From NCBI GenBank assembly GCA_005773635.1, contig SXHN01000122.1:1-64000 (forward strand): a stretch of 64,000 bases of DNA, read 5' to 3'. This stretch comes from Actinomycetota bacterium. GTDB taxonomy: Bacteria; Actinomycetota; Acidimicrobiia; IMCC26256; PALSA-610. Under the pieces are notes generated by a model. The model was not told the DNA's origin and ran no database searches. It was given only the letters and a program-made list of their open reading frames with translations. Position numbers and translations under genes: made by a program. Position 1 is the stretch's first letter. Each line of letters starts with the position of its first letter. Positions 2,912 to 61,451 of the stretch are shown piece by piece.

Positions 2912-3919
2912 ATGCGCGCTGCAGTCACACAAGGCACCGGGAAGCTGCTCCAAACACTGGAGATCTCTGATCCCGAACCACTTTCGGGGGAGCTCCTCGT
3001 CAAAATCACGGCCTGCGGAATATGCGGCTCAGATCTTCATCTGTCGGACGCACTCGACTTCCCCGGCATCGTGCTGGGCCATGAGTTTGCGGGAGAGGTC
3101 GTCGAGACCGGGCCCAACGTCGAAGGGTGGAAGATTGGCGACCGTTTGGCTGGCTTTCCACTCATGGGTTGCGGCACCTGCAAGTACTGCGTAGCTGGCG
3201 CCACGTCGAAATGCGCCGCCGCAAACCAGCTCGGGCTGCAACGACCAGGCGGCTTTGCCCAGTACACAACATTGGCCGCCAGCAGCGCGTTTCGAATTCC
3301 CGATTCACTCGACGATCACGCGGGGGCGTTGGTTGAGCCCCTCGCCGTTGCGCATCACGCGCTTGCAGCGACTCGCCGTGATCCTGCTGCGCCGGTGCTC
3401 ATCATCGGTGGAGGGCCGGTCGGCGCGGTGGTCGCATTATGGGCTCGACACCTGGGATCCACAGAGGTGATCGTGAGCGACCCGGTGGCGCATCGGCGTA
3501 CATTGGCCGAGGCGGTCGGAGCAACTGCAACTATCGACCCGACTACCACCGACGTTGCGACCGAGTTCGCAAAGATTGTTGGCCACGCACCTGAGGTAGT
3601 AGTCGAGTGTGTTGGCATCGCTGGCATGATCCAGCACGCGTTCGACGTTGCCGCCGTCGATGCTGCCGTCACCATCGTCGGCGTGTGTATGACCGCCGAT
3701 CAAATGATGCCACTCACCGCATTGCAGAAAGAACTCGCCGCCCAATTTGTGTTGTACTACCGCAAAAGTGATTTCGTCGCGAGTATCGCGGCGCTAGCCG
3801 ATGGCTCGCTGCAACCTCATGCACTCGTCACGGGGGCGGTCACGCTTGATGAGCTGCCTAATCGCTTCCAATCACTAAAAGCACCATCGCACGACTGCAA
3901 AGTGATGCTGGAACCCTAG
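2912..3919 (+). CDS. Zinc-dependent alcohol dehydrogenase (medium-chain family)
   Basis: A 335-residue MDR dehydrogenase. The N-terminal GroES-like half has GICGSDLH (catalytic-zinc cysteine), LGHEFAGEV (zinc histidine and glutamate) and GCGTCKYCVAGATSKC, the four-cysteine structural zinc lobe. The Rossmann half begins IIGGGPVGAVVALWAR and has a following acidic residue, consistent with NAD use. It should oxidise a secondary alcohol or polyol-type substrate; specificity cannot be assigned. The crotonase at 3932 follows by 12 nt in the same direction, so they probably form an operon. The 278 bp upstream contain no recognisable gene. Confidence 0.9.
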   Translation: MRAAVTQGTGKLLQTLEISDPEPLSGELLVKITACGICGSDLHLSDALDFPGIVLGHEFAGEVVETGPNVEGWKIGDRLAGFPLMGCGTCKYCVAGATSKCAAANQLGLQRPGGFAQYTTLAASSAFRIPDSLDDHAGALVEPLAVAHHALAATRRDPAAPVLIIGGGPVGAVVALWARHLGSTEVIVSDPVAHRRTLAEAVGATATIDPTTTDVATEFAKIVGHAPEVVVECVGIAGMIQHAFDVAAVDAAVTIVGVCMTADQMMPLTALQKELAAQFVLYYRKSDFVASIAALADGSLQPHALVTGAVTLDELPNRFQSLKAPSHDCKVMLEP

Positions 3920-48286: not shown

Positions 48287-49309
48287 CTATAGCGATTCGT
48301 GGCTCGCGCACCAAGCGAGAAGCTCATCGACCGGCCAGGTATTCACAATTGATTGCACTGGCACTCCGCACTCCGCGGCACGATTACAACCGTATGGATG
48401 CCACTGCAACTGATGTGTTGCATGGGCGTCGGTATCGATCGATACCTTGATGCCGAGCTCCACCACTCGCCGCAACATGCGCTTCGGTGGATCGAGCCGT
48501 TCCGGCCGGCAGTTAATCTCAACGGCCTTGTCAAAGTGCAAACACGACGCGAACACCATGTCGGCGTCGAATTCCGATTCAGGGCGACCACGACCCGTGA
48601 CCAATCGACCAGTGCAATGGCCGAGTATGTCGGCGAGCGGGTTCGCCATTGCCAAAATCATCCGTTCCGTCATCGGTTGGCGTTCCATTCGCAGCTTCGA
48701 ATGCACACTGGCGACCACCACATCAAGGCGCGACAGCAACTCGGGCTCACCATCGAGTGCGCCGTCATCAAGAATGTCGGTTTCGACACCGGTGAGTAGT
48801 CGAAAGGGTGCGAACTCACGGTTGATTGCCGCCACTGCATCAAGCTGATCACTCAACCGTTGCGCATCCAGCCCGTTCGCGACCTTTAAGCGGGGCGAGT
48901 GGTCGGTAAGCGCCAAATACTCATGGCCGATCTCGCGTGCCGCGGCGGCCATGGCATGCATCGTGTCGCCACCATCGGACCAATCGGAATGCAAATGAAG
49001 ATCGCCCCGGAGAGCCTTCTGCAGAGCCCGCCCCGCTTCAGTGGCAACATCGGCACGGGATTCAGCCCGAAGCTGCAACAAATATGCGGGTACCACTCCC
49101 GTCAGCGCCTCGGTGATCACTGCCGCAGTCTTGTCGCCCACTCCCGGCAGCGCGGCCAACTGGCCTGCGGCCGAAATCCGTTGCAGATCTTCGAGGCTTG
49201 CACCTTGAATGGCTCGGGCGGCGTTGGTAAATGCTCGCGCCCGAAAGCCAGCATCACGTTGGTACGCGAGCAGTTCGGCGATCTCTTGCAACGCCGCAAC
49301 GGGGTCCAC
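48287..49309 (-). CDS. PHP-domain protein with PolX-like helix-hairpin-helix N-terminus but no polymerase domain
   Basis: 340 residues from the GTG at 49309; the longer frame runs antisense through tRNA-Ser and is rejected. Residues 1 to about 85 resemble the pol-beta/PolX N-terminal HhH region (EIAELLAYQRDAGFRARAFT, LAALPGVGDKTAAVI). Directly after comes a complete PHP metal site: GDLHLHSDWSDG, LALTDHSP, TGVETDIL, VVASVHSKL, ILGHCTGR, and DTDAHATHQL. PolX enzymes have palm/thumb domains between these parts; here they are absent, so it is a stand-alone phosphoesterase or nuclease, perhaps in repair. Confidence 0.87.
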   Translation of the reverse strand: MDPVAALQEIAELLAYQRDAGFRARAFTNAARAIQGASLEDLQRISAAGQLAALPGVGDKTAAVITEALTGVVPAYLLQLRAESRADVATEAGRALQKALRGDLHLHSDWSDGGDTMHAMAAAAREIGHEYLALTDHSPRLKVANGLDAQRLSDQLDAVAAINREFAPFRLLTGVETDILDDGALDGEPELLSRLDVVVASVHSKLRMERQPMTERMILAMANPLADILGHCTGRLVTGRGRPESEFDADMVFASCLHFDKAVEINCRPERLDPPKRMLRRVVELGIKVSIDTDAHATHQLQWHPYGCNRAAECGVPVQSIVNTWPVDELLAWCASHESL

Positions 49310-49377
49310 GTAGTCACCGTATCGCCCAAGCCGTATCGCTGCCGGGAATGGGTTACGCCTCCGGTATGCTCGACAAC

Positions 49378-49470
49378 GGAGGGCTGACCGAGTGGCCGAA
49401 GGTGCTCGCCTGCTAAGCGAGTAGGGGGTCATAAGCTCCCTCGAGGGTTCAAATCCCTCGCCCTCCGCCA
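49378..49470 (+). tRNA. tRNA-Ser (anticodon GCT)
   Basis: Acceptor stem GGAGGGC/GCCCTCC, anticodon stem CTCGC/GCGAG around CTGCTAA (anticodon GCT), long variable arm, T-arm AGGGTTCAAATCCCT. The tRNA body ends at 49467, and CCA is encoded at 49468-49470. It diverges from the PHP gene with about 70 bp between. Confidence 0.96.
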
Positions 49471-49524
49471 ATCATCACGTCTGTAGTGGCGAGACCGTCG
49501 CGTTCGGCGCTAAGCATCACACCA

Positions 49525-50160
49525 ATGGACCACGACACAATTATCTCGTCCCTGCAACAACTGGGTGCCGCGACCGTCGGAGAATCGGGCGGCGAAGCAA
49601 TGCGCGACCGCGTTCGCCCGGCATGGCGGGGCGCCCAAGTGATTGGGCTCGCAGTTCCGGTTGTCTGCACCCCGGGCGACAACCTTGCGATTCACGTCGC
49701 AGTCGCGCAGGCGCCCGCTGGCAGCGTCTTAGTGGTCAACGTTGGTGACATCCCCGAACTCGGGTATTGGGGTGAAGTGCTCACCACGGGCGCACAAGCT
49801 CGGGGCATCGCTGGCCTCGTGATTGACGGAGGCGTTCGCGATATCGATGCACTACAACGCCTTGGATTCCCCGCGTTTTCCAGCACGATTGCCTTGCGCG
49901 GCGCATCCAAGATTCGACCTGGCAGTGTCGGGAGCACCACGTCGGTTGGCGGCGTCGAGGTGAAACTTGGTGACTGGGTTGTGGGCGATGCAGACGGAGT
50001 GACAATCGCTGATGGGGCGACGATCGAAGACATCATCGCTGCGGGGCGAGAGCGCGCCCAAGCCGAACGACGGTACTTTGAACAGCTTCGCGCTGGCTCC
50101 ACAACCGTCCAGCTCCTCGAACTCGATGAGACAGCGGTGAAAGTTACGCTCACCGACTGA
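49525..50160 (+). CDS. RraA-family protein (4-hydroxy-4-methyl-2-oxoglutarate aldolase/oxaloacetate decarboxylase-like)
   Basis: About 211 residues from the ATG at 49525. The core GEVLTTGAQARGIAGLVIDGGVRDIDAL contains the RraA/HMG-aldolase metal and substrate loop (G-G-x-R-D), and the C-terminal VVGDADGVTIAD is also conserved. Members either cleave 4-hydroxy-4-methyl-2-oxoglutarate to pyruvate, decarboxylate oxaloacetate, or inhibit RNase E (RraA proper). The neighbouring hydroxyacid dehydrogenase and ureidoglycolate-lyase-like genes favour a metabolic aldolase/decarboxylase role. Convergent with the dehydrogenase at 50167, 6 bp apart. Confidence 0.87.
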   Translation: MDHDTIISSLQQLGAATVGESGGEAMRDRVRPAWRGAQVIGLAVPVVCTPGDNLAIHVAVAQAPAGSVLVVNVGDIPELGYWGEVLTTGAQARGIAGLVIDGGVRDIDALQRLGFPAFSSTIALRGASKIRPGSVGSTTSVGGVEVKLGDWVVGDADGVTIADGATIEDIIAAGRERAQAERRYFEQLRAGSTTVQLLELDETAVKVTLTD

Positions 50161-50166
50161 TCCGAA

Positions 50167-51141
50167 TCAGTCGCTATTGGGTTCGCGGGCAATCAGGTTC
50201 GCGGGTCGACCGCCTTGCAAATATTGCGCTACGGCATTCGTAGCCGACAATGCCATGTTGCGGCGTGTCGCTTGCGAGGCCGAGCCAATATGCGGGAGCA
50301 ATACAGTTCGTGGCGCGGTCAACAATCGCGGATGAACTTCGGGTTCGCGTTCGAACACATCAAGACCCGCGGCAAAGATCGATCCGGCATGCAGCGCTTC
50401 AGCCAGCGCCGCTTCGTCGACCACCGACCCTCGGGCCGTGTTCACCAACACGGCAGTCGTCTTCATCAATGCGAGGCGCCGGCCATCGATGAGATGCACG
50501 GTGTCGGGGCCACCGGGGGTATGGATCGAAATGATGTCCGCCACGCGACATAGCTCATCGAGATCATCCATATACCCGGGTTCGCCGGTTTCACGTCGGC
50601 TGTGATGAAGCACGCGCATCCCGAAACCTTGTGCGCGCCGAGCGACTGCACGTCCAATTCGGCCGAAGCCAATGATTCCGAGCGTGGCTCCGTGTATATC
50701 GACACCCAAATACTGTGTGATTCCCCAACCTGGCCAATCCCCTGCCCGCAAATCCGACTCGGCTGCAAACGTCAGACGCGACGCCGCAAGCATCAACAAC
50801 ACCGCAGCATCGGCAGTGGTTTCGTCGAGTACTCCTGGAGTATTCGACACTTCAATGCCGAGACGATGCGCCGAACGCCAATCGATATTGTCGTAGCCAA
50901 CTGCAACGTTTGCGATCACTCGCAAAGAATGCGCCGCGCCGACACTCAGGATTTCGTAATCGATGAGATCCGTGAGCAAGCAGACGATCGCGTCAACTGA
51001 CTCAGCCAATCCAAGCAATTCCTCGCTGGAATACGGGGTGTCGTCGTCACGTGGCCCCACGATTTCAAATCCGGCGTTAATAAGTGGGTCAAGACCGCCT
51101 TCGGGGAGTCGGCGCGTGACCAATACTCTCGGGCTAGTCAT
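50167..51141 (-). CDS. D-2-hydroxyacid dehydrogenase (glyoxylate/hydroxypyruvate reductase type)
   Basis: 324 residues from the ATG at 51141, which overlaps the cupin stop (TGATG). NAD(P) loop GIIGFGRIGRAVARRAQGFGMRV with basic residues after it (HHSRRETG), suggesting NADPH. Catalytic Arg in NTARGSVVDE, Glu in FEREPEVHPRL and His in LLPHIGSAS are all present. The VANVAVGYDNID and GVLDETTADAAVLLML segments are typical of glyoxylate/hydroxypyruvate reductases. Reduction of glyoxylate to glycolate would suit the divergent ureidoglycolate-lyase-like gene, whose product would be glyoxylate. Confidence 0.92.
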   Translation of the reverse strand: MTSPRVLVTRRLPEGGLDPLINAGFEIVGPRDDDTPYSSEELLGLAESVDAIVCLLTDLIDYEILSVGAAHSLRVIANVAVGYDNIDWRSAHRLGIEVSNTPGVLDETTADAAVLLMLAASRLTFAAESDLRAGDWPGWGITQYLGVDIHGATLGIIGFGRIGRAVARRAQGFGMRVLHHSRRETGEPGYMDDLDELCRVADIISIHTPGGPDTVHLIDGRRLALMKTTAVLVNTARGSVVDEAALAEALHAGSIFAAGLDVFEREPEVHPRLLTAPRTVLLPHIGSASQATRRNMALSATNAVAQYLQGGRPANLIAREPNSD

Positions 51142-51524
51142 CAATGCGAGGTGTAGTCAATGGCTTCAGCGTCGGGCGTACCCACCGCAAAACAGAAGCA
51201 GTGAATCGGTGCATGCTCGCTCACCGGCCGCAAGCTGTGCACGGCGTTCGGCGGAATATGCACAAGATCGCCCTGCGCGATTTCCCGAGATTCACCCGAG
51301 ATCTCCATGATTCCCCGCCCTGCAGTCACGTAATAAAACTCATGGGTCGGGTGATGGTGCGGGTCGACGTAGCCCCCACCCGCAACTTCGAATTCGCTCA
51401 CCAATTCAAGGTGTCCGCCTTTGGTGATGTCGAACATCTCGCGAGGGTTCACGAGCCACCAGACCGGCACGGTTCCGTTGTGTTCAACAACAGGTGCAAC
51501 GTCTTTTATCGAACGGACGTCCAT
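51141..51524 (-). CDS. Cupin-domain protein
   Basis: 127 residues. The cupin motif 1 is seen as VDPHHHPTHEFYYVTAGRGIME (G-x5-H-x-H-x-x-x-E pattern: His-x-His, then Glu) and motif 2 as GDLVHIPPNAVHSLRP (PxG-like with the last His). These give a mononuclear metal site in a beta barrel. Small single cupins like this act as isomerases, dioxygenases or sugar/acid sensors. It is the first gene of a two-gene unit with the hydroxyacid dehydrogenase and shares a 91-bp divergent control region with the ureidoglycolate-lyase-like gene. Confidence 0.85.
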   Translation of the reverse strand: MDVRSIKDVAPVVEHNGTVPVWWLVNPREMFDITKGGHLELVSEFEVAGGGYVDPHHHPTHEFYYVTAGRGIMEISGESREIAQGDLVHIPPNAVHSLRPVSEHAPIHCFCFAVGTPDAEAIDYTSH

Positions 51525-51615
51525 AACAATTCTCCTTGCGGTTCGGCGCCATCAGCGATCCAGCGTCTCTACACTCAAGCAGGCTACGGGTTCGCGCAGC
51601 ACAGGAGCAACGGCA

Positions 51616-52134
51616 ATGAATGCAACGCAGCGACATTTCTCGCTCAATCTTCAACCGCTCACGCCAGAGGCGTGGGCAAGATTTGGCACGTTGCCAAGTG
51701 ACGAACGTGATGAGAACGCGTACCGTCGCAGCGACCTCGAATTTCTTTGGAACGATGGTCAGGTCAACTTCATCGCGCACGACAACAACGAAGTGACGCT
51801 GAGCGAAGGGCGTGTTCGTTGCGAACTCCTGAACCGCCACGATACCCACACACAAACGCTCATGCCCATGACCAGTGATGCCTACATTGTTGTGGCACCG
51901 GCAAGCGTCGACTTCACATCCTCTGACCATTTCCTCGAAGTTGCAGCATTTCGAGTGCCCCAACACGTACCGGTTCACCTCAACCGAGGAACCTGGCATT
52001 GGGGGCCGTACCCTCTCGGCGCCGACTCCTTGCGTATCTTCAATATCCAAGGCCGCGGCTACGTCAACGACAACGAAATCGCGTGGCTCAACCGAGACCA
52101 CAACACGACCTACGAGGTTGCAATCAATGAATGA
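51616..52134 (+). CDS. Ureidoglycolate lyase (AllA)-like protein
   Basis: 172 residues from the ATG at 51616, with AGGAG about 7 nt upstream. HTQTLMPMTSDAYIVVAPAS, FLEVAAFRVPQHVPVHLNRG and GTWHWGPYPLG are the characteristic AllA strands with the two substrate-side histidines. AllA releases urea from ureidoglycolate, giving glyoxylate, in purine/allantoin breakdown. No other allantoin genes are seen here, so a related ureido or hydroxy acid substrate is possible. The SDR gene starts within its last codons (8-nt overlap). Confidence 0.84.
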   Translation: MNATQRHFSLNLQPLTPEAWARFGTLPSDERDENAYRRSDLEFLWNDGQVNFIAHDNNEVTLSEGRVRCELLNRHDTHTQTLMPMTSDAYIVVAPASVDFTSSDHFLEVAAFRVPQHVPVHLNRGTWHWGPYPLGADSLRIFNIQGRGYVNDNEIAWLNRDHNTTYEVAINE

Positions 52135-52921
52135 ATTCGCAAACCGAGGCGCGATCGTGACGGGAGGTGCTTCGGGCATCGGTGCGGCAACCGCGGCACG
52201 ATTCGCGCAAGCCGGTGCACGCGTCGCGGTGGTCGATCGCGATCTCGACGCGGCCGCCACTATCGCTCGCACGTTGCCAGGAGCGATCGCGTTCGAATGC
52301 GACGTGCGTAACACTGCTGCGGTCGATGAAACGGTCGGTTTGGCGATGGACACGTTCGGCGATTGCTCGCTACTCGTCAACAATGCCGGCGTCGGCGACC
52401 TGCGCCCGATGCATACCGTCGACGACAAACTCTGGCACCGGCTCATCGACGTCAACCTCACCGGCACGTTCTCCATGATGCGCGCGGTGCTGCCCCACAT
52501 GCTGGCCGCGCAACGGGGCGCGATCGTGAACAATGCTTCGCTATCCGGCCTCGCTCCCACTCGCAACGAAGCGGCCTACTCGGCGGCCAAAGCGGGTGTG
52601 ATCGCGCTCACCAAGAGCGGGGCACTTGAGTACGGGCCCTTCGTACGCGTGAACTGCGTAGCGCCGGGCTTCATCGCGACGCCCCTCACTGTGGCATTTC
52701 AACAGATGCCCGAGACCTTCGAACCAATTCGGGACTCCATTCCGTTGCAACGCATGGGTACCGCCGAGGACGTGGCCGAAGTCATCGCGTTTCTTTGCTC
52801 CGACAAGGCCGCATACGTAACTGGCCAAACCCTTGTTGTCGACGGCGGCCTCGGCCTTCCGCAGGCGGGAACCGACGCCGCGCTTGCGGCCCTGTTTGCG
52901 AAGTTCTCAGAGCTGAATTAG
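52127..52921 (+). CDS. Short-chain dehydrogenase/reductase (SDR)
   Basis: 264 residues. Classical SDR: cofactor loop AIVTGGASGIGAATAARFAQAG with Asp after strand 2 (VAVVDRDL), pointing to NAD(H); NNAGVG; catalytic Ser in NNASLSGLAP and YSAAK (Tyr-x-x-x-Lys); CVAPGFIATPL; C-terminal YVTGQTLVVDGGLGLP. It overlaps the AllA-like gene by 8 nt, so both form one unit. The substrate is probably a hydroxy acid or its ester linked to the cluster, but this is inference. Confidence 0.92.
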   Translation: MNEFANRGAIVTGGASGIGAATAARFAQAGARVAVVDRDLDAAATIARTLPGAIAFECDVRNTAAVDETVGLAMDTFGDCSLLVNNAGVGDLRPMHTVDDKLWHRLIDVNLTGTFSMMRAVLPHMLAAQRGAIVNNASLSGLAPTRNEAAYSAAKAGVIALTKSGALEYGPFVRVNCVAPGFIATPLTVAFQQMPETFEPIRDSIPLQRMGTAEDVAEVIAFLCSDKAAYVTGQTLVVDGGLGLPQAGTDAALAALFAKFSELN

Positions 52922-53024: not shown

Positions 53025-53100
53025 GCGCTCGTAGCTCAATGGATAGAGCATCTGGCTACGGACCAGAAGGTTGGGAGTTCGACTCTCTCCGAGCGCGCCA
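53025..53100 (+). tRNA. tRNA-Arg (anticodon ACG)
   Basis: Acceptor stem GCGCTCG/CGAGCGC, D-arm with AGCTCAATGGATAGAGC, anticodon stem TCTGG/CCAGA around CTACGGA (anticodon ACG), T-arm GGGAGTTCGACTCTC, discriminator G53097, CCA encoded at 53098-53100. An exact copy of its 3' part is found at 57187, so it is the attachment site of the island that follows. Confidence 0.97.
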
Positions 53101-53106
53101 CACAAA
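53063..53106 (+). other. attL: Left attachment-type repeat (3' part of tRNA-Arg)
   Basis: 44 bp from the 3' half of the anticodon stem to 6 bp beyond CCA. It is identical at every base to 57187-57230, and the flanking bases differ on both sides. An identity block ending just beyond a tRNA 3' end is the normal footprint of tyrosine-integrase attachment sites. Confidence 0.88.
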
Positions 53107-53188
53107 TCATGTTCTGACCTGGAGCGATGCATCCGCGTGCGTACTGAGCGTTAACTTTGGCTGTTCCCAGTCAGGTTATGCTCCGCGA

Positions 53189-55252
53189 GTGACCGAGCCT
53201 GATCCAATGCGACCCGGTTGCTCGCCGCCGCTGCATTTCGCAGCCACTCATCAACTATCACGCGAACGCTGGGTATTTGTCGAGTACCTCGCGCTGAGTG
53301 GTGTTGCATTCGCGCAACCGCTGCTCGACACGCTCGGTCGCAACGCGAACTATCTGGTGACATCGGGCGTAACGGTAGCGCGAGCAATCATGTTGATCAT
53401 CTTGGTGTGCATCGTTCCGCCCTGCGTAATGTGGGCGTGCGAACGGCTGAGTGGCTATGCGGGCCATCGCGTTCGATTCGCAACCCACCAACTCATTACT
53501 TGCGCAATTTTGATTGTTCTATTTGTCCAAGTGATCCGGCGCAGCACCTCACTGGGGGCCAATGAGGTCATAGCAGGGGCCATCGCCCTGGGGATCGCCT
53601 CAACCTGGACGTTGCACAATTGGAAGTTGTCCCGACAGTTCCTGCGTTATCTCGCATGGACACCGTTACTCGCCGCAGTTCTCTTCTTACGTTTCAGCCC
53701 GGCGACCGACGCGATCTTCTCGAAGTCCCAGCCAGGCATCAAAGGCGTTCGCGTCGGCGCTCCGCATCGGGTCGTGTTCATCGTTCTCGACGAGATGCCG
53801 ACACGATCCCTGCTTGACGGCAAAGGCCACGTCGATCAGCAACTCTTTCCGAACTTCGCGAAGTTGGAGCAGCAATCCACTTGGTATCGCAACTCCACAA
53901 CAGTCGCCGGGTACACACAGGGTGCGGTTCCGGCACTGCTCACCGGCCGAACTCCCAGATCGCTCAAAACGCTGTCAACGAGTTCCGAACATCCAGGCAA
54001 CTTGTTTGCCCTACTCGAAAATTCCTACAGCCTCAAGGTGCACGAAGCAGTGACACGCCTCTGCCCTTCGGCATCGTGCACAAGCTTCAAAGGCGCCGGC
54101 CTTAGCGGACTACTGCGAACCAGCACTGACCTGTGGCGCACAAGTGCATCACCCAAGAAACGGCCAAAAATTTCAGCCGACTTCGACGACGCCAACGCGT
54201 CGGCATTCGCGCTCGATAACGCCACCGATTTCGTCAATTCCATCAATGGCTCCGCTCCCAACCACCTCGACTTTCTCCATGTGTTACTGCCTCATTATCC
54301 GTGGCACTACGTCAACACGCTGCAAGGTCACCGTGCGACATCACATTCACTCCCAGGAGAGAAGTATCTCTCGCCGTGGAGCCCGACCGGCGCACAAACC
54401 GCCCGTCAGCGCCACCTACTTCAAGTACAAGCAACCGACACGCTGCTCGGTCAAATCGTCGAACGCCTAGAAGACCTCGAAGCGTTCGACGACACAATGC
54501 TCATCGTCACCGCCGACCACGGAATTTCCTTCAGCGCGACTGAACCGGCACGCAACGTCACCAACACAAACAGTGCTGATTTGATGTGGACGCCGCTGTT
54601 CGTAAAGTATCCGAACCAGAGCGCGGGTGTCATCGACGACCGCAGCGCGCTATCCATTGACGTGTTTCCGACGATCCTCGATGTCCTCAAAATCGACGTC
54701 CCCTCAACAGTCCCCGGCGCAGATGGAATCTCGCTGCGAGCCACCGCTCGTGCAACAAATGAGCGGTTCATGTATCCGGCCACCGGACTCACCGACGCAC
54801 AGGCAAACACCGAATTCACAAAGCTGCTCCAATCCCGAGCGGTCGCACCGAACCTCGACGCCGAATTACGGATCTACCGCGACTCGCAACTCGGAGCACT
54901 CATTGGCACTCGAATGCCGACCGCGTATAGGTCTCGCGACGTTGTCACTACTGGGGCGAAAGTAAACATCGACAACCGCAAGGCATTTCGTAGCGTCGAT
55001 CGTGATGCCCGAAACGCAGAATGGCTATGGAGCCTCGCAGAATTTACAAACGTGACAGCAGGTGCGACCGCAGTTTTCACAGTGAATGACACCATCGCCG
55101 CAACTTGCACCACCGTACGCGACCCCGGCAATGATGTGCGCTGCAGTTTTACGGTGCCACCCTCACTTGTAGCGGACGGCGACAATGAAATAGCGATGTA
55201 TCTAGTGGACGACCCGATCCGTTTGCGTTTCACCAAGATTGCAGTCACATGA
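53189..55252 (+). CDS. Membrane-anchored sulfatase-fold (alkaline-phosphatase superfamily) hydrolase/transferase
   Basis: About 687 residues from the GTG at 53189 (an ATG at 53207 is also possible); the frame that starts inside the tRNA is rejected. About five hydrophobic helices fill residues 25-175. The catalytic domain then begins VVFIVLDEMP (metal Asp201-Glu202), has GYTQGAVPALLTGR with the likely nucleophile Thr243, and VTADHGISF (Asp443-His444). This is the layout of membrane phosphoglycerol or phosphoethanolamine transferases and related sulfatase-fold proteins that decorate cell-surface glycans or lipids. The acyltransferase gene overlaps its stop (ATGA). First cargo gene of the tRNA-Arg island. 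Confidence 0.85.
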   Translation: MTEPDPMRPGCSPPLHFAATHQLSRERWVFVEYLALSGVAFAQPLLDTLGRNANYLVTSGVTVARAIMLIILVCIVPPCVMWACERLSGYAGHRVRFATHQLITCAILIVLFVQVIRRSTSLGANEVIAGAIALGIASTWTLHNWKLSRQFLRYLAWTPLLAAVLFLRFSPATDAIFSKSQPGIKGVRVGAPHRVVFIVLDEMPTRSLLDGKGHVDQQLFPNFAKLEQQSTWYRNSTTVAGYTQGAVPALLTGRTPRSLKTLSTSSEHPGNLFALLENSYSLKVHEAVTRLCPSASCTSFKGAGLSGLLRTSTDLWRTSASPKKRPKISADFDDANASAFALDNATDFVNSINGSAPNHLDFLHVLLPHYPWHYVNTLQGHRATSHSLPGEKYLSPWSPTGAQTARQRHLLQVQATDTLLGQIVERLEDLEAFDDTMLIVTADHGISFSATEPARNVTNTNSADLMWTPLFVKYPNQSAGVIDDRSALSIDVFPTILDVLKIDVPSTVPGADGISLRATARATNERFMYPATGLTDAQANTEFTKLLQSRAVAPNLDAELRIYRDSQLGALIGTRMPTAYRSRDVVTTGAKVNIDNRKAFRSVDRDARNAEWLWSLAEFTNVTAGATAVFTVNDTIAATCTTVRDPGNDVRCSFTVPPSLVADGDNEIAMYLVDDPIRLRFTKIAVT

Positions 55253-57153
55253 AAAATCGCTTGACCTACCAACCCGCGCTCGACGGCTTGCGAGCAATCG
55301 CAGTCATCGCAGTGTTGATCTACCACGATCACAAGATTCCCGGATCTGACGGCGGTCTCACCGGTGGCTTCCTCGGAGTTGAGGTGTTTTTCGTACTCTC
55401 GGGTTACCTCATTACGTCGCTACTCCTGAACGAAATCGTTGCAACTGGGCGAGTCGCATTCGGCACCTTCTTTGCACGCCGGCTGCGAAGATTGACACCC
55501 GCGCTGATCGTGATGCTTCTCGGTATTGCGTTGTACACCGCCACATTGGCGGAGTCGTGGAATCGCAGCCGCATTCGCAGCGATGCGATCGCGACGCTGC
55601 TCAATTCCCAGAACTGGCATCTCATACTGGGGCACTTTCGCAGCGGCTCGATACTCAACCACACATGGTCGCTCTCAATTGAAGAGCAGTGGTACTTCTT
55701 GTGGCCTTTAGCACTCACTGGGCTCATGTTGATCACAACCCACGGCCTACGACGCGTCGCAATCATCGTCTCTTCAATAGCGCTGGGTTCGGCAACGATG
55801 AATGCCTTCCTCATCAGTCGCCCAAACACAACGAACCTACGGATGTATTACGGCACAGACACGAGGTCGCTTGGTCTCCTACTCGGCGCCGCGTTCGCTA
55901 TCTGGGTGAGTTACTTTGGCGGCAGGCTCCCGCTCTCCGATGCGATCACACGATTCCTCGGCAGCGCCGGGTTGCTGATCGTCGGCGGGATGATGGTGCT
56001 TATGCAGGACAGTGACACGCTGCTCTTTCAGGGCGGTCTATTGGTATTCGGTCTCGCTGTCGTGGCAATTATCAACGCAACGTTGCATAGCTCGCCGACG
56101 TATATCGGTCGGGCGTTGTCAGCGAAGCCGTTGCGATCGATTGGGATCGTGTCGTACGGCTTGTACTTGTATCACTGGCCTCTGTATTTCGTGCTCACAC
56201 CTGCACGTATTGAAATTTCTGGGGCGCCGCTATTGGCCGTGCGCCTCATCGTCACACTTGCAGCTGCAACCGCTTCATACTTCCTGTTCGAGCGTCCGAT
56301 CCGCAACGCATCTGTCCGCCCACGTTATGTGGCACTCGCTGCGTTGATCTCGATTGGCACCACCGCCGCCGTTGCAACCGTCAGCGCATCCGGCGCGGTC
56401 AAGTTGCAGTACGCCGAACCCGCTTCCGAACCGAATCCGTTGGCACTGGTGCACCTTGGAACCATTGCCAAAGCGGCGCCAAGAGCGCATCGCGTACTTG
56501 TTGTCGGCGATGTCTTCGCTGTCCAAATGGGCGTCGGCAGCAACGGAAAGTTCGAGCGCGACGGCATGGTGGGAACCACCTTCGGATCCCTTGGTTGTGG
56601 ACTGGCCGAAGGTGGGCTCGTGGGTCCCGGAGGTGTCGCGCATGACGAACTCCCCAACTGCTACCGATGGCCCGACCAGTATCGTGCCGCGGTTGCGACA
56701 TTTCGACCGAACACCGTCGTCCTGGCCGCAACATCACGAGAATTGTTCAACCGCAGAATCGGCGGCAAAGTATTGCGTTTCACAACCAGCGAACTCTCAA
56801 CCCAGATCAAACGCGAACTCGAACGAACGCACGTAATCGTCACGAAACATGGCGCACGACTGGTGTTGCTCACGGTGCCATGTATCCCCAATATTGCAAT
56901 CGACCGCGCCACACCCGAAGTTCGCGTCGACCCAAGACGCATCGCGGAATACAACACCATCCTTCGCGATTTCGCCAAAGCTCATTCCGCAACGACCTCA
57001 GTCGCGGAACTCGCCGACGTGCTGTGCCCAACGCAGCCCCTCAATGGTGTTGACTGGGCGCGTACATATTGGCAACGTCCCGGCGCGATTACTCCAGCTG
57101 GTGCCAATGCGGTATGGCAATGGATCTCTAGATTGCCCGAGCTGAGCAAGTAA
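55249..57153 (+). CDS. Acyltransferase 3 (OafA-type) with degenerate SGNH C-terminal domain
   Basis: 634 residues. The N-terminal membrane acyltransferase has the family motifs YQPALDGLRAIAVIAVLIYH (catalytic His), GGFLGVEVFFVLSGYLITSLL, ARRLRRLTPAL and NHTWSLSIEEQWYFLWPL, with about ten helices to residue 385. The periplasmic C-terminal part (about 395-634) has the SGNH plan, but the first block reads VLVVGDVFAVQ: the nucleophilic Ser of GDS is Val422, and the final DxxH motif is also lost. O-acetylation of surface polysaccharide is the likely role, possibly with another protein supplying the SGNH activity. Second cargo gene of the island. Confidence 0.88.
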   Translation: MKNRLTYQPALDGLRAIAVIAVLIYHDHKIPGSDGGLTGGFLGVEVFFVLSGYLITSLLLNEIVATGRVAFGTFFARRLRRLTPALIVMLLGIALYTATLAESWNRSRIRSDAIATLLNSQNWHLILGHFRSGSILNHTWSLSIEEQWYFLWPLALTGLMLITTHGLRRVAIIVSSIALGSATMNAFLISRPNTTNLRMYYGTDTRSLGLLLGAAFAIWVSYFGGRLPLSDAITRFLGSAGLLIVGGMMVLMQDSDTLLFQGGLLVFGLAVVAIINATLHSSPTYIGRALSAKPLRSIGIVSYGLYLYHWPLYFVLTPARIEISGAPLLAVRLIVTLAAATASYFLFERPIRNASVRPRYVALAALISIGTTAAVATVSASGAVKLQYAEPASEPNPLALVHLGTIAKAAPRAHRVLVVGDVFAVQMGVGSNGKFERDGMVGTTFGSLGCGLAEGGLVGPGGVAHDELPNCYRWPDQYRAAVATFRPNTVVLAATSRELFNRRIGGKVLRFTTSELSTQIKRELERTHVIVTKHGARLVLLTVPCIPNIAIDRATPEVRVDPRRIAEYNTILRDFAKAHSATTSVAELADVLCPTQPLNGVDWARTYWQRPGAITPAGANAVWQWISRLPELSK

Positions 57154-57186
57154 CGCATCGTCGCAACAAACACCGTTCACACGCGT

Positions 57187-57230
57187 CCAGAAGGTTGGGA
57201 GTTCGACTCTCTCCGAGCGCGCCACACAAA
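57187..57230 (+). other. attR: Right attachment-type repeat: 44-bp copy of the tRNA-Arg 3' end
   Basis: Exact duplicate of 53063-53106, including the T-arm, the acceptor 3' strand, CCA and 6 bp beyond. It is not a working tRNA, since the 5' half is absent. It marks the right edge of a 4,124-bp island (distance between the two repeat starts). The next 171 bp (57231-57401) contain nothing I can assign. Confidence 0.88.
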
Positions 57231-57401: not shown

Positions 57402-58097
57402 ATGTACATGATCCGAATACATCGATACGTCGCCACAACCGCTGCGGTCGCGGCATTGACCGTCAGCGGGCCCGGGCCTGCGGTACGTGCCGCTACCGAG
57501 CATCTCCCCAGTAACCAAACCTCACAGGCAGCTCCGGCTCCCGTCGTTCGTGTGTTGCCATTTCGCGGCGCGTTTCGCGTGACTGCTACCTGGGGCGGGT
57601 CCTACGGCCACGCCACGCCTGCAATCGATTTCTCGATGCCCATTGGTACGCGTATCTACGCAACTGCGGCGGGCAACGTCGACTATGTCTCGACCGACAA
57701 ACGCAACTGCAACCCCGCTGCGCACATTCCTCCCGGGGGTACGTCCCGAGACGGCATCAAATGGTGCATCGATCAAGGCATCACCGGCACCCGCATTCGC
57801 ATCCGCCACGACGACGGTACGTTTTCAATGTACGTGCATCTCAACCGAATCAAATTTGGGATCTCGGCGAGCCCATCCACTCGCGTCGCAGCAGGACAGC
57901 TCATTGGTTGGAGCGGCAACACCGGAATTTCATCTGGGCCGCATTTGCATTACAGCAAGATCAACAGCGCACAGACAGCGACAGTAGATCCGATCATGCT
58001 ACGTGCGTGCTGGGGAACCAAGGTCCACGCCTACACAAACCTGAAACTCCTCGCCGGCAAGATCGTCCGCAACGACAACCACACATGTAGCACGTAA
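57402..58097 (+). CDS. Secreted M23 (LytM-type) peptidase domain protein
   Basis: About 231 residues from the ATG at 57402 (ATG 57408 also possible). A signal peptide (basic start, hydrophobic core to about 25, cleavage near VRA-AT) is followed by a lysostaphin-type domain: SYGHATPAIDFSMPIGTRIYAT (the H...D metal pair), GTRIRIRHDDGTFSMYVHLN and SSGPHLHYSKI (HxH). Several cysteines (KRNCNPA, IKWCIDQ, RACWGT, HTCST) suggest disulfides. It should act on peptidoglycan cross-bridges outside the cell, or be a regulator if inactive. It lies just right of the island end. Confidence 0.87.
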   Translation: MYMIRIHRYVATTAAVAALTVSGPGPAVRAATEHLPSNQTSQAAPAPVVRVLPFRGAFRVTATWGGSYGHATPAIDFSMPIGTRIYATAAGNVDYVSTDKRNCNPAAHIPPGGTSRDGIKWCIDQGITGTRIRIRHDDGTFSMYVHLNRIKFGISASPSTRVAAGQLIGWSGNTGISSGPHLHYSKINSAQTATVDPIMLRACWGTKVHAYTNLKLLAGKIVRNDNHTCST

Positions 58098-58267: not shown

Positions 58268-59050
58268 CTACACCGCCACGATGTTCACTCGATGGTGTTG
58301 CGTCCGCACAATTCGTTCATGGGATTGAAACGCGAAACCTCCGCCTTCGAAACCAGTGCAGCCCTCGACCACATCAAGTGCTCGCTGCTGTACCAATGCC
58401 CGCACGAGCATTCCCTTAGCCGCTTTGGCGGCGTGCCCTGCCGCGCTGGCACCATTTGTGCTCACGAACTTCAACGCCAGCGTGCGCCTCGAAACTTCAG
58501 AGACATCCAACGCGGCGGCGTGTTCATTGGGAAGCACATCAACCAGCACCGCGCTCCCCATCGTTGCTCGCGCGGCTTCGAATAAACGCGGCCGCCACCA
58601 CTGCGCGAGACCTCCGATTTCGGGGAGCCGAGCGCCCATCTTGAGGCGATAGTCGGGCACCGGATCTCCCGCGCAGACCATCCCCAACAAACCCGAAACG
58701 ACAACCACATGCGAGGCGCACCATCGACGCGCCCCTACATCCATGGACGCAATATCGAGATGTCCGAACACAACACCCGAGTATCGATCGCGTGCTGACA
58801 ACGCAGGGGCTCCGACGAAACCATCCTCCGCAAGCGCAACCGCACGTTCGAGATGTGCGCCAGAAACTCCGAAGAACTTCGCTAACTCCGCGCTACCCGC
58901 GTTGCGCACGAACTTCTGAACGCGTTCTGCGATTTCTAAGCGAGCGTCTCCCAACAGGCTGCCAAATCGACCCGATTCCGCACTCCACAATCCCTTGCCG
59001 CCTGCCGCTTTACCTTCGCTGGGTGGCATCAAGAAAAAGCCCGCTTTCAT
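58268..59050 (-). CDS. yaaA: YaaA/UPF0246 family peroxide-stress protein
   Basis: 260 residues. MPPSEGKAAGGKG near the start and VVSGLLGMVCAGDPVPDYRLKM in the middle are YaaA family signatures; DVLPNEHAAALD and the later VSTNGASAAGHAAKAAKGMLVRALV also match. In E. coli YaaA limits Fenton damage by lowering free iron during hydrogen peroxide stress and binds DNA. The protein is cytoplasmic. Its start overlaps the stop of the upstream VOC gene (ATGA). Confidence 0.87.
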   Translation of the reverse strand: MKAGFFLMPPSEGKAAGGKGLWSAESGRFGSLLGDARLEIAERVQKFVRNAGSAELAKFFGVSGAHLERAVALAEDGFVGAPALSARDRYSGVVFGHLDIASMDVGARRWCASHVVVVSGLLGMVCAGDPVPDYRLKMGARLPEIGGLAQWWRPRLFEAARATMGSAVLVDVLPNEHAAALDVSEVSRRTLALKFVSTNGASAAGHAAKAAKGMLVRALVQQRALDVVEGCTGFEGGGFAFQSHERIVRTQHHRVNIVAV

Positions 59051-59874
59051 CGTGCTTCTCGAAGTCGCAATCGCACGCCGTGATTCATGAGAGGGTCGAT
59101 TTCGAAGGTGTCTTCACGTATCAGCGCCGCCCCACGAACGCTGCCTGCGTCGACCAAGCTGAACTCGATCCGATGCACGCGACCAGGTCGATCACCAAGC
59201 CACTCGTTGAGGTCTCCGTCGGTTGGCTGAATAAGTTGCAGCCGACCCGCACCGGGCCAAGTCAATTCGACCGAGCGCCCATCAACACCGTCAACCACCT
59301 CGGTTTGCATGGCACCGCCCAACACATCGCGAAACAACACAAGCGCTCCGTCAAGATCACCAACCAGGTGCACAATTCGATCCAACGTCGCTGGGCGTTT
59401 GCAACGCGATGGCGGCAGCACGTGGTGGTGAACGTCTTCGTCCCACTCGTGATGCGCAGCCTGTGCCAACTGCACCACGATGCCGTGACACTGCTTGGGA
59501 TGCAGAAATGCTTCCTTCCAGAATTCCTGGGACAAGTCGCTGCGCACGGGTGGAAATCCCGCAGCGGTTGCAGCGTCCATCGCCGCCACGATGTCGGGCA
59601 CCTTGAATGTGAGGTGATGCGGACCATCGCCCGAACGGTCGATAAATCGCCGAAGAAAATCATCGAGGTGCACATCGTGCGGCTGCAGCATTTCAATGAT
59701 CATGCCATTGGCGTAACGCACCTGGCCCCAATAGAAACCGGGACTGTGCATTCCGCCGTTCCACTCGCCGCCCAGATCACCGCGGTATCGGTCGAAGTTG
59801 TCCCACGCAACGTCAGCCGCGAGGGCGACGTGGTCGAGAAATATCGGCACGGGTGCCGCATCAGCAGTTGCCAT
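59047..59874 (-). CDS. Two-module VOC (glyoxalase/dioxygenase) family protein
   Basis: 275 residues with two VOC modules. The first (about 8-130) has FLDHVALAADVAWDNF, IIEMLQPHDV and GPHHLTFKVPDI; the second (about 160-270) has TLDRIVHLVGDLDGALVLF, GRLQLIQP and GRVHRIEFSL. His and Glu residues at the metal positions are largely retained in the first module. The substrate is unknown; a ring-cleaving or lyase activity would be typical. Translationally coupled to yaaA downstream. The palindrome at 59889 ends 15 bp before its start. Confidence 0.85.
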   Translation of the reverse strand: MATADAAPVPIFLDHVALAADVAWDNFDRYRGDLGGEWNGGMHSPGFYWGQVRYANGMIIEMLQPHDVHLDDFLRRFIDRSGDGPHHLTFKVPDIVAAMDAATAAGFPPVRSDLSQEFWKEAFLHPKQCHGIVVQLAQAAHHEWDEDVHHHVLPPSRCKRPATLDRIVHLVGDLDGALVLFRDVLGGAMQTEVVDGVDGRSVELTWPGAGRLQLIQPTDGDLNEWLGDRPGRVHRIEFSLVDAGSVRGAALIREDTFEIDPLMNHGVRLRLREAR

Positions 59875-59888
59875 CTCGCCAAACTAAC

Positions 59889-59924
59889 GCAGTCATGCGT
59901 CAGAAGATTCTGACGCATGACTGC
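59889..59924 (-). terminator. 36-bp perfect palindrome, probable terminator of the 39-residue gene
   Basis: Arms of 17 bp (59889-59905 and 59908-59924) are exact reverse complements around a 2-bp centre. It lies 9 bp after the stop of the small gene at 59934 and 15 bp before the VOC start on the same strand. A terminator/attenuator hairpin is likely; an operator for a dimeric regulator is the alternative. Confidence 0.7.
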
Positions 59925-59933
59925 CTTTCGTAA

Positions 59934-60053
59934 TTATGGGGCTCGCCTGCCGTTGCGCAAATGTCGTTTGAGGCGAGCTTCGGTTGCTTGAGTCAACAGA
60001 CGCCGCTGGTGTTCACGGGCCAACAGCGCGACAGTCAAAGGATGGTTATGCAT
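59934..60053 (-). CDS. 39-residue basic small protein
   Basis: ATG at 60053, stop TAA at 59936-59934, and TTGGAG about 7 nt before the start. The peptide is one probable amphipathic helix, LAREHQRRLLTQATEARLKR flanked by basic residues, similar in style to short arginine-rich actinobacterial proteins (LAxEHxxxLLxxA). A strong palindrome follows 9 bp after the stop. These three features together make a real gene more likely than chance. No membrane segment. Function unknown. Confidence 0.55.
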   Translation of the reverse strand: MHNHPLTVALLAREHQRRLLTQATEARLKRHLRNGRRAP

Positions 60054-60127
60054 GAGGTACTCCAAAGTGGCGGCGCGCGCTGAGGCACACCAAAGGGAAT
60101 CGACCAGTTTCGCGGAATTGCGAAGGG

Positions 60128-60202
60128 TCAGAGAATGCCGAGCGAGGTGAGGATCACAGGCACAGGCATTCCGGTTGGGTTGTTCGGATTCATTCCACTC
60201 AC
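60128..60202 (-). CDS. Candidate 24-residue peptide gene with a near-consensus ribosome binding site
   Basis: GTG at 60202, with AAGGAGGTG ending 6 nt before it, the best ribosome binding site noticed in the window. The ORF reads MSGMNPNNPTGMPVPVILTS plus four residues and stops at 60130-60128. A second start, ATG 60193, is in frame. The same frame is open upstream to about 60328, so it could instead be the end of a decayed gene. A leader or short regulatory peptide upstream of the 39-residue gene is possible. The rest of 60203-60356 shows nothing assignable. Confidence 0.35.
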   Translation of the reverse strand: MSGMNPNNPTGMPVPVILTSLGIL

Positions 60203-60356
60203 TGTGACACCTCCTTCACGTCGCTGGTACGGCAACACATGATCGCGCGCCAGCCGCGGCAAGTCCAAACGAATTACGACGCCAGCCGTGCTACCGCTAG
60301 AACCACCACCGAAGTGCTCCCGTTATTCGAAGAGCCGTCCAGGTTGCGCACCAAAC

Positions 60357-61451
60357 TCAGAAGCTAATTACGGTGCGTAGCCCGATCCCCGCGTGCATAT
60401 CGGCGAAACCCTCGTTCACCTCAGAAAGCGGCCGCCGCGCCGTGATCATGCCTTCAAGATCGAGTCGACCGGCGCGCCACAAATTCAACAAGCGTGGTAC
60501 TTCACGTTTACCGTTGCAACCACCGAGCAACGTTCCGATGAGTTTGCGCTCCGTCGCCATAAAGATCGTGGCTGGCACTTGCACGATGTGATCGATGGGG
60601 GCTGCGCCCACCATCACCGTGGTTCCGCCCGCACGACAAGCCCACATGCCGGTTTCGATCAACGCTGCAGCACCCACGGCATCAAAGGCGTAATCGACGC
60701 CGCCCGCAGCGATGCCCATTACCCGTGACATCACGTCTTCATTCGTAGGGTCAATCGCGTCGGTAGCACCAAAACGCGCGGCGAGATCTCGGCGGCCGCC
60801 GTTGGGATCGCTCACGATCACCCGCGACGCACCCGCGATACGAGCACCTTGCACGATCGAGATACCAACACCGCCCAAGCCCATCACCAATACGGTCGCG
60901 CCCGCTTCAACCTTTGCAGCATTGAGCACCGCCCCGACACCGGTTTGCACCGAGCAACCGATCACACACGCAACATCAAGTGGAACATCATCATCGACTT
61001 TGATCACAGCATTGGCGTCGAGCAGCGCGTACTCGCCGAACGCGCCAACGCCAAGACCGCGGTACACCACTGTGCCGCTTCGAGACAGCCCAGTAGCGCC
61101 TCCTACGAAGGTGCTAGAGGTGATCGCCGACGCGTTCACACAGACACCGAATTCGCCCCGCACGCAGCCATAACACGAACCGCACGCCGCGATTGGCGAG
61201 AGCACGACCCGATCACCGGGCTTCAAATCCTTTACTCCCAAGCCGACTTCTTGCACGACCCCCGAAGCCTCGTGTCCCAACACGATTGGGCCAGGCGCCG
61301 GGAACTGACCGTTGACATTGGAGTAGTCGGAATGACATAAACCGCAGTGCGCCACCTTGATCAGCACCTCGCCCGCCCCGGGATCGGAGATGGTGATGTC
61401 GTCGACAATGACAAGCGGAGTATTAGGAGCTTCTAGCAAGGCTGCACGCAT
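60357..61451 (-). CDS. Zinc-dependent alcohol dehydrogenase (class III/MDR type)
   Basis: 364 residues. CGLCHSDYSNVNG (zinc Cys), LGHEASGVV (His-Glu), CGSCYGCVRGEFGVC (structural zinc cysteines), IGCSVQTGVGAVLNAA with the second catalytic-zinc cysteine, and VLVMGLGGVGISIVQGARIAGA (NAD loop) followed by SDPNGGRR. The length and the GCSVxTG motif match class III-like dehydrogenases, including mycothiol- or glutathione-linked formaldehyde and aryl-alcohol dehydrogenases. A detoxification or alcohol-oxidation role is likely. Start overlaps no gene; the SRPBCC gene diverges 68 bp away. Confidence 0.9.
   Translation of the reverse strand: MRAALLEAPNTPLVIVDDITISDPGAGEVLIKVAHCGLCHSDYSNVNGQFPAPGPIVLGHEASGVVQEVGLGVKDLKPGDRVVLSPIAACGSCYGCVRGEFGVCVNASAITSSTFVGGATGLSRSGTVVYRGLGVGAFGEYALLDANAVIKVDDDVPLDVACVIGCSVQTGVGAVLNAAKVEAGATVLVMGLGGVGISIVQGARIAGASRVIVSDPNGGRRDLAARFGATDAIDPTNEDVMSRVMGIAAGGVDYAFDAVGAAALIETGMWACRAGGTTVMVGAAPIDHIVQVPATIFMATERKLIGTLLGGCNGKREVPRLLNLWRAGRLDLEGMITARRPLSEVNEGFADMHAGIGLRTVISF

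Follow-up and report, generated by a model that had tools for sequence, protein, structure and literature searches.

The window analysed in this study is a 64,000-nucleotide stretch of DNA from an Acidimicrobiia MAG (3,557,840 bp in 125 contigs, 95% complete), in which a tRNA-Arg(ACG) gene and a displaced copy of its 3' part enclose two protein-coding genes, hereafter the islet. The features of the locus are as follows:

48287..52921, no strand given: conserved upstream block, adjoining tRNA-Arg(ACG) in relatives (tblastn/blastn synteny)
53025..53100, plus strand: tRNA-Arg(ACG), intact, CCA encoded, the integration target (ARAGORN)
53063..53106, plus strand: attL, the copy of the att-like 44-bp repeat on the tRNA side, one of a pair unique in the genome (repeat search)
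53107..53188, plus strand: left end of the islet, with CTGACCTG at 53114-53121 and no tandem arm-type repeat
53207..55252, plus strand: gene 1, membrane alkaline-phosphatase-superfamily enzyme, PF00884 (Pfam, alignments, AlphaFold2, Foldseek)
55249..57153, plus strand: gene 2, AT3-SGNH membrane O-acyltransferase, OafA/SucT-like (PF01757, phrog_6705, NCBIfam SucT)
57154..57186, plus strand: right end of the islet, 33 bp, without a match to the module conserved at the right ends of relatives' islets
57187..57230, plus strand: attR, the displaced copy of the 44-bp repeat on the far side, not sharing the anticodon loop of the tRNA
57402..58097, plus strand: secreted M23 peptidase, first gene past the islet (Pfam)

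Two genes between copies of a tRNA tail

The repeat search showed that the 44 bp at 53063-53106 have an identical, directly oriented copy 4124 bp farther on, at 57187-57230. With tRNA-Arg(ACG) placed at 53025-53100 by ARAGORN, the repeat begins at C39, on the 3' side of the anticodon stem, and extends through the CCA to 6 bp past it; the exact repeat described in the earlier note is confirmed. When the tRNA was used as a query against the whole genome, the two 44-bp sites were recovered, together with weak matches (73-74%) to other tRNAs, and no third copy was present in the 3,557,840 bp. Since the repeat is seen at these two places only, chance and a genome-wide repeat are ruled out as its source, and the earlier view of a repeat tied to the tRNA, not scattered through the genome, holds.

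The host tRNA-Arg(ACG) carries a G31-C39 pair (positions 53055 and 53063) in place of the A31-T39 of most relatives, and the displaced tail likewise has C39. Both copies bear the host-specific bases C39 and GGGAG/CTCTC, whereas nearly all phage cores have T39 and GGGGG/CCCTC; the last exchange would therefore have drawn on a donor whose tRNA is the same, or else on gene conversion. In most of the relatives compared, the repeated core spans the region from the anticodon loop to near the end of the tRNA, while the core of the islet extends from C39 to past the CCA, which seems to fit a T-stem-type rather than an anticodon-centred crossover in Islander's terms. Because the collinear DNA of G000 and the same-genus G001 differs by about 22-30%, yet all 44 positions of the displaced copy are unchanged, the sequences would imply an event younger than most of the divergence between the two genomes.

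Between the repeats, Pfam and the ORF list place only the PF00884 gene and the AT3-SGNH gene, joined by an ATGA overlap, with non-coding DNA limited to 82-100 bp at the left end and 33 bp at the right. Pfam detected neither an integrase nor an excisionase or relaxase there, no integrase remnant rose above noise with 18 integrases as queries (E <= 1e-4), and the bare two-gene content reported earlier was thus upheld. No ICE or IME remnant lies inside the islet, a decay series being present only in relatives, and phage structural, packaging or regulatory genes are also absent, since Pfam and PHROGs report enzymes for both genes. The left-end octamer CTGACCTG is shared with phage attPs; of 67 tRNA-Arg att copies, 19 have an octamer of this type no farther than 45 bp away, where 0.29 would be expected, in a set of sequences that are not independent of one another. 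Tandem arm-type repeats are missing from both ends, and neither end has a significant match elsewhere in 14 genomes of the family. A foreign composition was rejected, as both genes have the GC3 and codon usage typical of the host; with host-like codon usage and att-core bases, any exchange would therefore be recent and local.

Concerning gene 1, translation starts at ATG 53207 or GTG 53189 and stops at 55252. Its AlphaFold2 model (mean pLDDT 86.5) comprises an N-terminal helical part, presumably a membrane domain, an alkaline-phosphatase-superfamily part and a C-terminal beta-rich part, and Foldseek with this model returned sulfatases and phosphonate monoester hydrolases, with MCR-1 and PbgA over longer alignments. 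The formylglycine sulfatase motif C/S-x-P-x-R is not found in the protein; the alignments place Thr237, within YTQGAVPALLTG, at the nucleophile position and show D195 and D437-H438 to be conserved. Because of these residues, gene 1 more probably encodes a phosphotransferase or hydrolase than a formylglycine sulfatase. The host genome contains four paralogues, at 34-39%.

In gene 2, PF01757 scores above its cut-off and the SGNH-like PF19040 just below it. The nearest named models are the PHROG O-antigen acetylase phrog_6705 (239 bits, over most of the length) and NCBIfam SucT (78.9 bits, far below the cut-off); in mycobacteria, SucT succinylates cell-envelope arabinans (PMC10503756). Judging from their families, both genes plausibly decorate surface glycans or lipids. 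The surface-modifying cargo proposed in the earlier note is plausible by family and fold. A pattern scan found no close viral relatives of either gene. Two genomes from the host's family, G007 and G010, have sulfatase-acyltransferase pairs, and a conserved pair was found at 0 of 61 loci outside that family.

The tRNA-Arg(ACG) site in relatives and phages

The upstream block contains genes for a PHP/DNA polymerase X-like protein, a demethylmenaquinone methyltransferase-like protein, a 2-hydroxyacid dehydrogenase, a cupin, a ureidoglycolate-lyase-like protein and an SDR, the last named from PF13561 and the others read from ORFs. These genes are collinear in G001 (70-78% DNA identity) and partly so in G003, G004, G005, G034, G050 and G056. 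In G001 the similarity ends at the tRNA, and the DNA downstream of the tRNA differs in every genome compared. Since the upstream side is kept and the downstream side differs throughout, the tRNA is a synteny breakpoint.

After its tRNA, G001 has genes for a putative secreted protein, another AT3 acyltransferase and sugar transferases, which are absent from the host genome at the DNA level; this polysaccharide-biosynthesis region (L042, G001:C95, 8812-20000) follows the same tRNA with no displaced tRNA tail. The M23 gene past the islet and the genes at 58268-61451 are collinear with G001 contig C9, apart from the tRNA of that genome, and the order M23, YaaA-like, VOC-like, alcohol dehydrogenase is kept there, with no tRNA tail on the contig. 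Just upstream of the minus-strand gene 59047-59874, positions 59886-59927 hold a near-perfect 20-bp inverted repeat (AACGCAGTCATGCGTCAGAA / TTCTGACGCATGACTGCCTT), a possible operator or terminator.

The two islet genes were found at tRNA-Arg(ACG) in none of the relatives examined, so that the case which the earlier note had named as counting against it, with all close relatives carrying these genes but lacking the repeat, did not arise. The empty site that it had suggested looking for, with the tRNA directly followed by 57231 onward, was not found in 58 genomes of the order.

BLAST with the tRNA gave matches in 55 of 61 relatives, some partial or to other tRNAs. Displaced tRNA-Arg tails are clear in 13 of 58 order genomes, and in at most 16 when contig-end copies are counted; with the variety of islands that they bound, these tails substantiate the hot spot proposed earlier. 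The elements at this tRNA encode tyrosine integrases, in different states of preservation. G017 has two islands bounded by tRNA tails, of 12.3 kb with an intact integrase and of 7.9 kb with integrase fragments 59% identical to the integrase of its neighbour. The integrase is intact in the 9.3-kb island of G035, broken and read in two frames in the 13.4-kb island of G030, and reduced to its N-terminal arm-binding and SAM-like domains, with the catalytic domain gone, in a 3.9-kb island of G014. Integrase-less segments were found in G014 (2.2 kb), G044 (2.6 kb), G050 (2.0 kb), G053 (1.0 kb) and G056 (1.1 kb), beside the 4.1 kb of the studied islet, and islets without an intact integrase outnumber islands with one.

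The cargo in relatives comprises PIN, AbiEi, nucleotidyltransferase, Fic, NYN, DoxX-like and polysaccharide deacetylase genes, as well as type I restriction-modification-like and DarTG-like genes read from ORFs, and therefore surface genes are a minority at this tRNA. The 12.3-kb integrase-bearing island of G017 (L044, G017:C128, 2400-14800) lies directly after the tRNA with apparent type I restriction-modification and DarTG-like genes, and may be read as a defence island.

The tRNA-Arg core was also found on 14 IMG/VR contigs, most with an adjoining integrase, which indicates that phages use tRNA-Arg(ACG). On L143, L145, L146, L149 and L151-L155 the core adjoins the integrase, and several have tandem 12-bp repeats about 60 bp from this core and share the octamer CTGACC(A/T)G; these contigs probably represent a phage group specific for this tRNA. 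The exchange by phages suggested in the earlier note is thus supported as to the site, but not as to the cargo or the core, as the pattern scan found no close viral relatives of either islet gene and the host-specific core bases are absent from nearly all phage cores. The cargo suggests that cell-surface chemistry may be exchanged at a site where phages also integrate.

A further group of islets at this tRNA has conserved ends:

L043 (G014:C38), 10.6-12.9 kb
L053 (G044:C119), 1236-1360 and 3807-3912
L075 (G023:C28), 257-381

A right-end module of about 125 bp with a tandem GCT(A/C)ACC repeat is common to five islet ends, two in G014, two in G044 and one in G023, and the second G014 islet and that of G044 have a matching tandem repeat about 60 bp inside the left end. 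These islets occur in three genera of two families, carry unrelated cargo, and have absent or truncated integrases. Among 296 genomes of the class, no further one contained the full-length module, and IMG/VR gave no match to either of two exact core versions of 22-23 nt. These islets may be non-autonomous cassettes that are mobilised in trans at this tRNA. Both the module and the tandem GCT(A/C)AC arm repeats are absent from the studied islet, and the islets of G014, G044 and G023 are better candidates for trans-mobilised cassettes, as well as the more novel lead.

Origin of the islet

We consider the islet to be a real site-specific islet, a small and compact case of a known element type, and judge it probable that it is an att-bounded, integrase-less, CIME-like remnant of an island that lost its integrase. 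In this process, site-specific recombination, presumably through a tyrosine integrase, would have inserted a larger island into the 3' end of tRNA-Arg(ACG); the incoming att core would have restored the tRNA and displaced the original tail to 57187. An internal deletion would then have removed the integrase and the arm-type sites, leaving the two surface-glycan or lipid genes as cargo. The islet would now be immobile alone, and would move only with an arriving tRNA-Arg-specific integrase, acting in trans, or in cis once a new element has inserted next to the islet.

This reading follows from the exact, correctly oriented and unique 44-bp repeat together with the stop of synteny at the tRNA across genus, family and order. 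It is also based on the displaced tails in 13-16 of 58 genomes with the same-site series from intact through broken to no integrase, on the phage contigs in which the core accompanies an integrase, on the retained left-end octamer, and on the size of CIMEs with cargo in S. salivarius, 1.2-13 kb (PMC7563491). Several observations weigh against it: the islet shows no decay directly, as it retains no remnant of an integrase, relaxase or phage gene; the layout is as tight as that of a purpose-built cassette; the core omits the anticodon loop used in most compared relatives and may point to a different integrase class; the host-specific bases in both copies would need a local donor or gene conversion; no empty site was found; and, the genome being a MAG, a misjoin at the 44-bp repeat is conceivable.

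The tight layout, with both genes co-directional with the tRNA, is what would be expected of a minimal non-autonomous cargo cassette, as proposed in the earlier note, whose two genes and single att site circularise and reinsert through the integrase of another element. Trans mobilisation at this tRNA is plausible in principle, because integrase-less islets found there in other families have retained tandem arm-type repeats that match between the left and right ends, and host-like codon usage with a host-specific att core fits repeated local movement. The studied islet, however, has neither the tandem arm repeats nor the common end module, and no other element in the genome has its ends. Seven PF00589 genes, two Xer-like and five non-Xer, were found in the host genome; none adjoins the 44-bp core, and a tree of 23 integrases, over which the tRNA-Arg integrases are spread, places no host integrase in a supported tRNA-Arg clade. 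With none of the five non-Xer integrases tied to this tRNA, a trans-acting integrase in the host genome was rejected, and movement of this islet as such a cassette appears rather unlikely. We regard as more doubtful still the broader idea that tRNA-Arg(ACG) in this uncultured order of Acidimicrobiia is a capture site for one- to two-gene integrase-less cassettes, trans-mobilised by phage or island integrases with the same core, the islet being one member of an integron-like cassette economy.

The start of the repeat at C39, which omits the anticodon loop, covers the whole T arm and passes the CCA, would also suit an inactive remnant of a T-stem-type (Islander 'J') integrase or prophage whose cargo represents phage morons, including a serotype-converting acyltransferase. 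Phages do use this tRNA, and gene 2 matches the moron family phrog_6705; nevertheless, ordinary chromosomes of the order encode many AT3 proteins, with 14 matches in the host genome, and the pattern scan found no near viral counterpart of either gene, which makes this origin improbable. An artefact, in which short reads were misjoined at the 44-bp repeat or a small duplication placed the tail ectopically beside resident genes, has to be kept in mind for a MAG in 125 contigs, as these repeats coincide with contig breaks in other MAGs. Against this, both junctions lie within a 128-kb contig of nearly uniform composition, and same-orientation displaced tails occur independently in many order genomes, unlike random duplication; we consider an artefact the least probable origin.

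Relation to known mobile elements

The natural series at tRNA-Arg(ACG), from whole island to bare cargo, offers a means to separate decay from trans-mobilisation by the survival of the cis ends. Among known systems, CIMEs are cis-mobilizable elements, decayed ICE- or IME-derived islands with attL and attR, e.g., in Streptococcus (PMC5704250, PMC7563491). The islet resembles them in that two direct repeats, attL and attR, bound it at a conserved target gene's 3' end with no recombination, conjugation or mobilisation genes between, and its size lies with the 1-13 kb of cargo-bearing CIMEs, which likewise show tandem accretion at such a site. It differs in that no trace of an ICE or IME parent is seen, the host is an acidimicrobiian, and no active element adjoins it in the genome.

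The tRNA islands of Islander and TIGER (PMC4383910, PMC12424338) share with the islet an intact tRNA gene followed by a co-oriented displaced 3' fragment, which together mark the ends. For Islander an integrase gene within the island is obligatory, whereas the islet has none, and surveys with such a demand would therefore skip islets like the one studied here. Integron gene cassettes rely on an attC site and an IntI platform; the att site of the islet is a tRNA tail. In Dehalococcoides, 16 of 31 ssrA genomic islands are described as carrying an integration module (PMC3146451); these islands differ in using a serine recombinase and a 20-bp repeat, where the tRNA-Arg(ACG) elements have tyrosine integrases, but as at this tRNA they form tandem cargo islands between repeats of the 3' end of one small-RNA gene.
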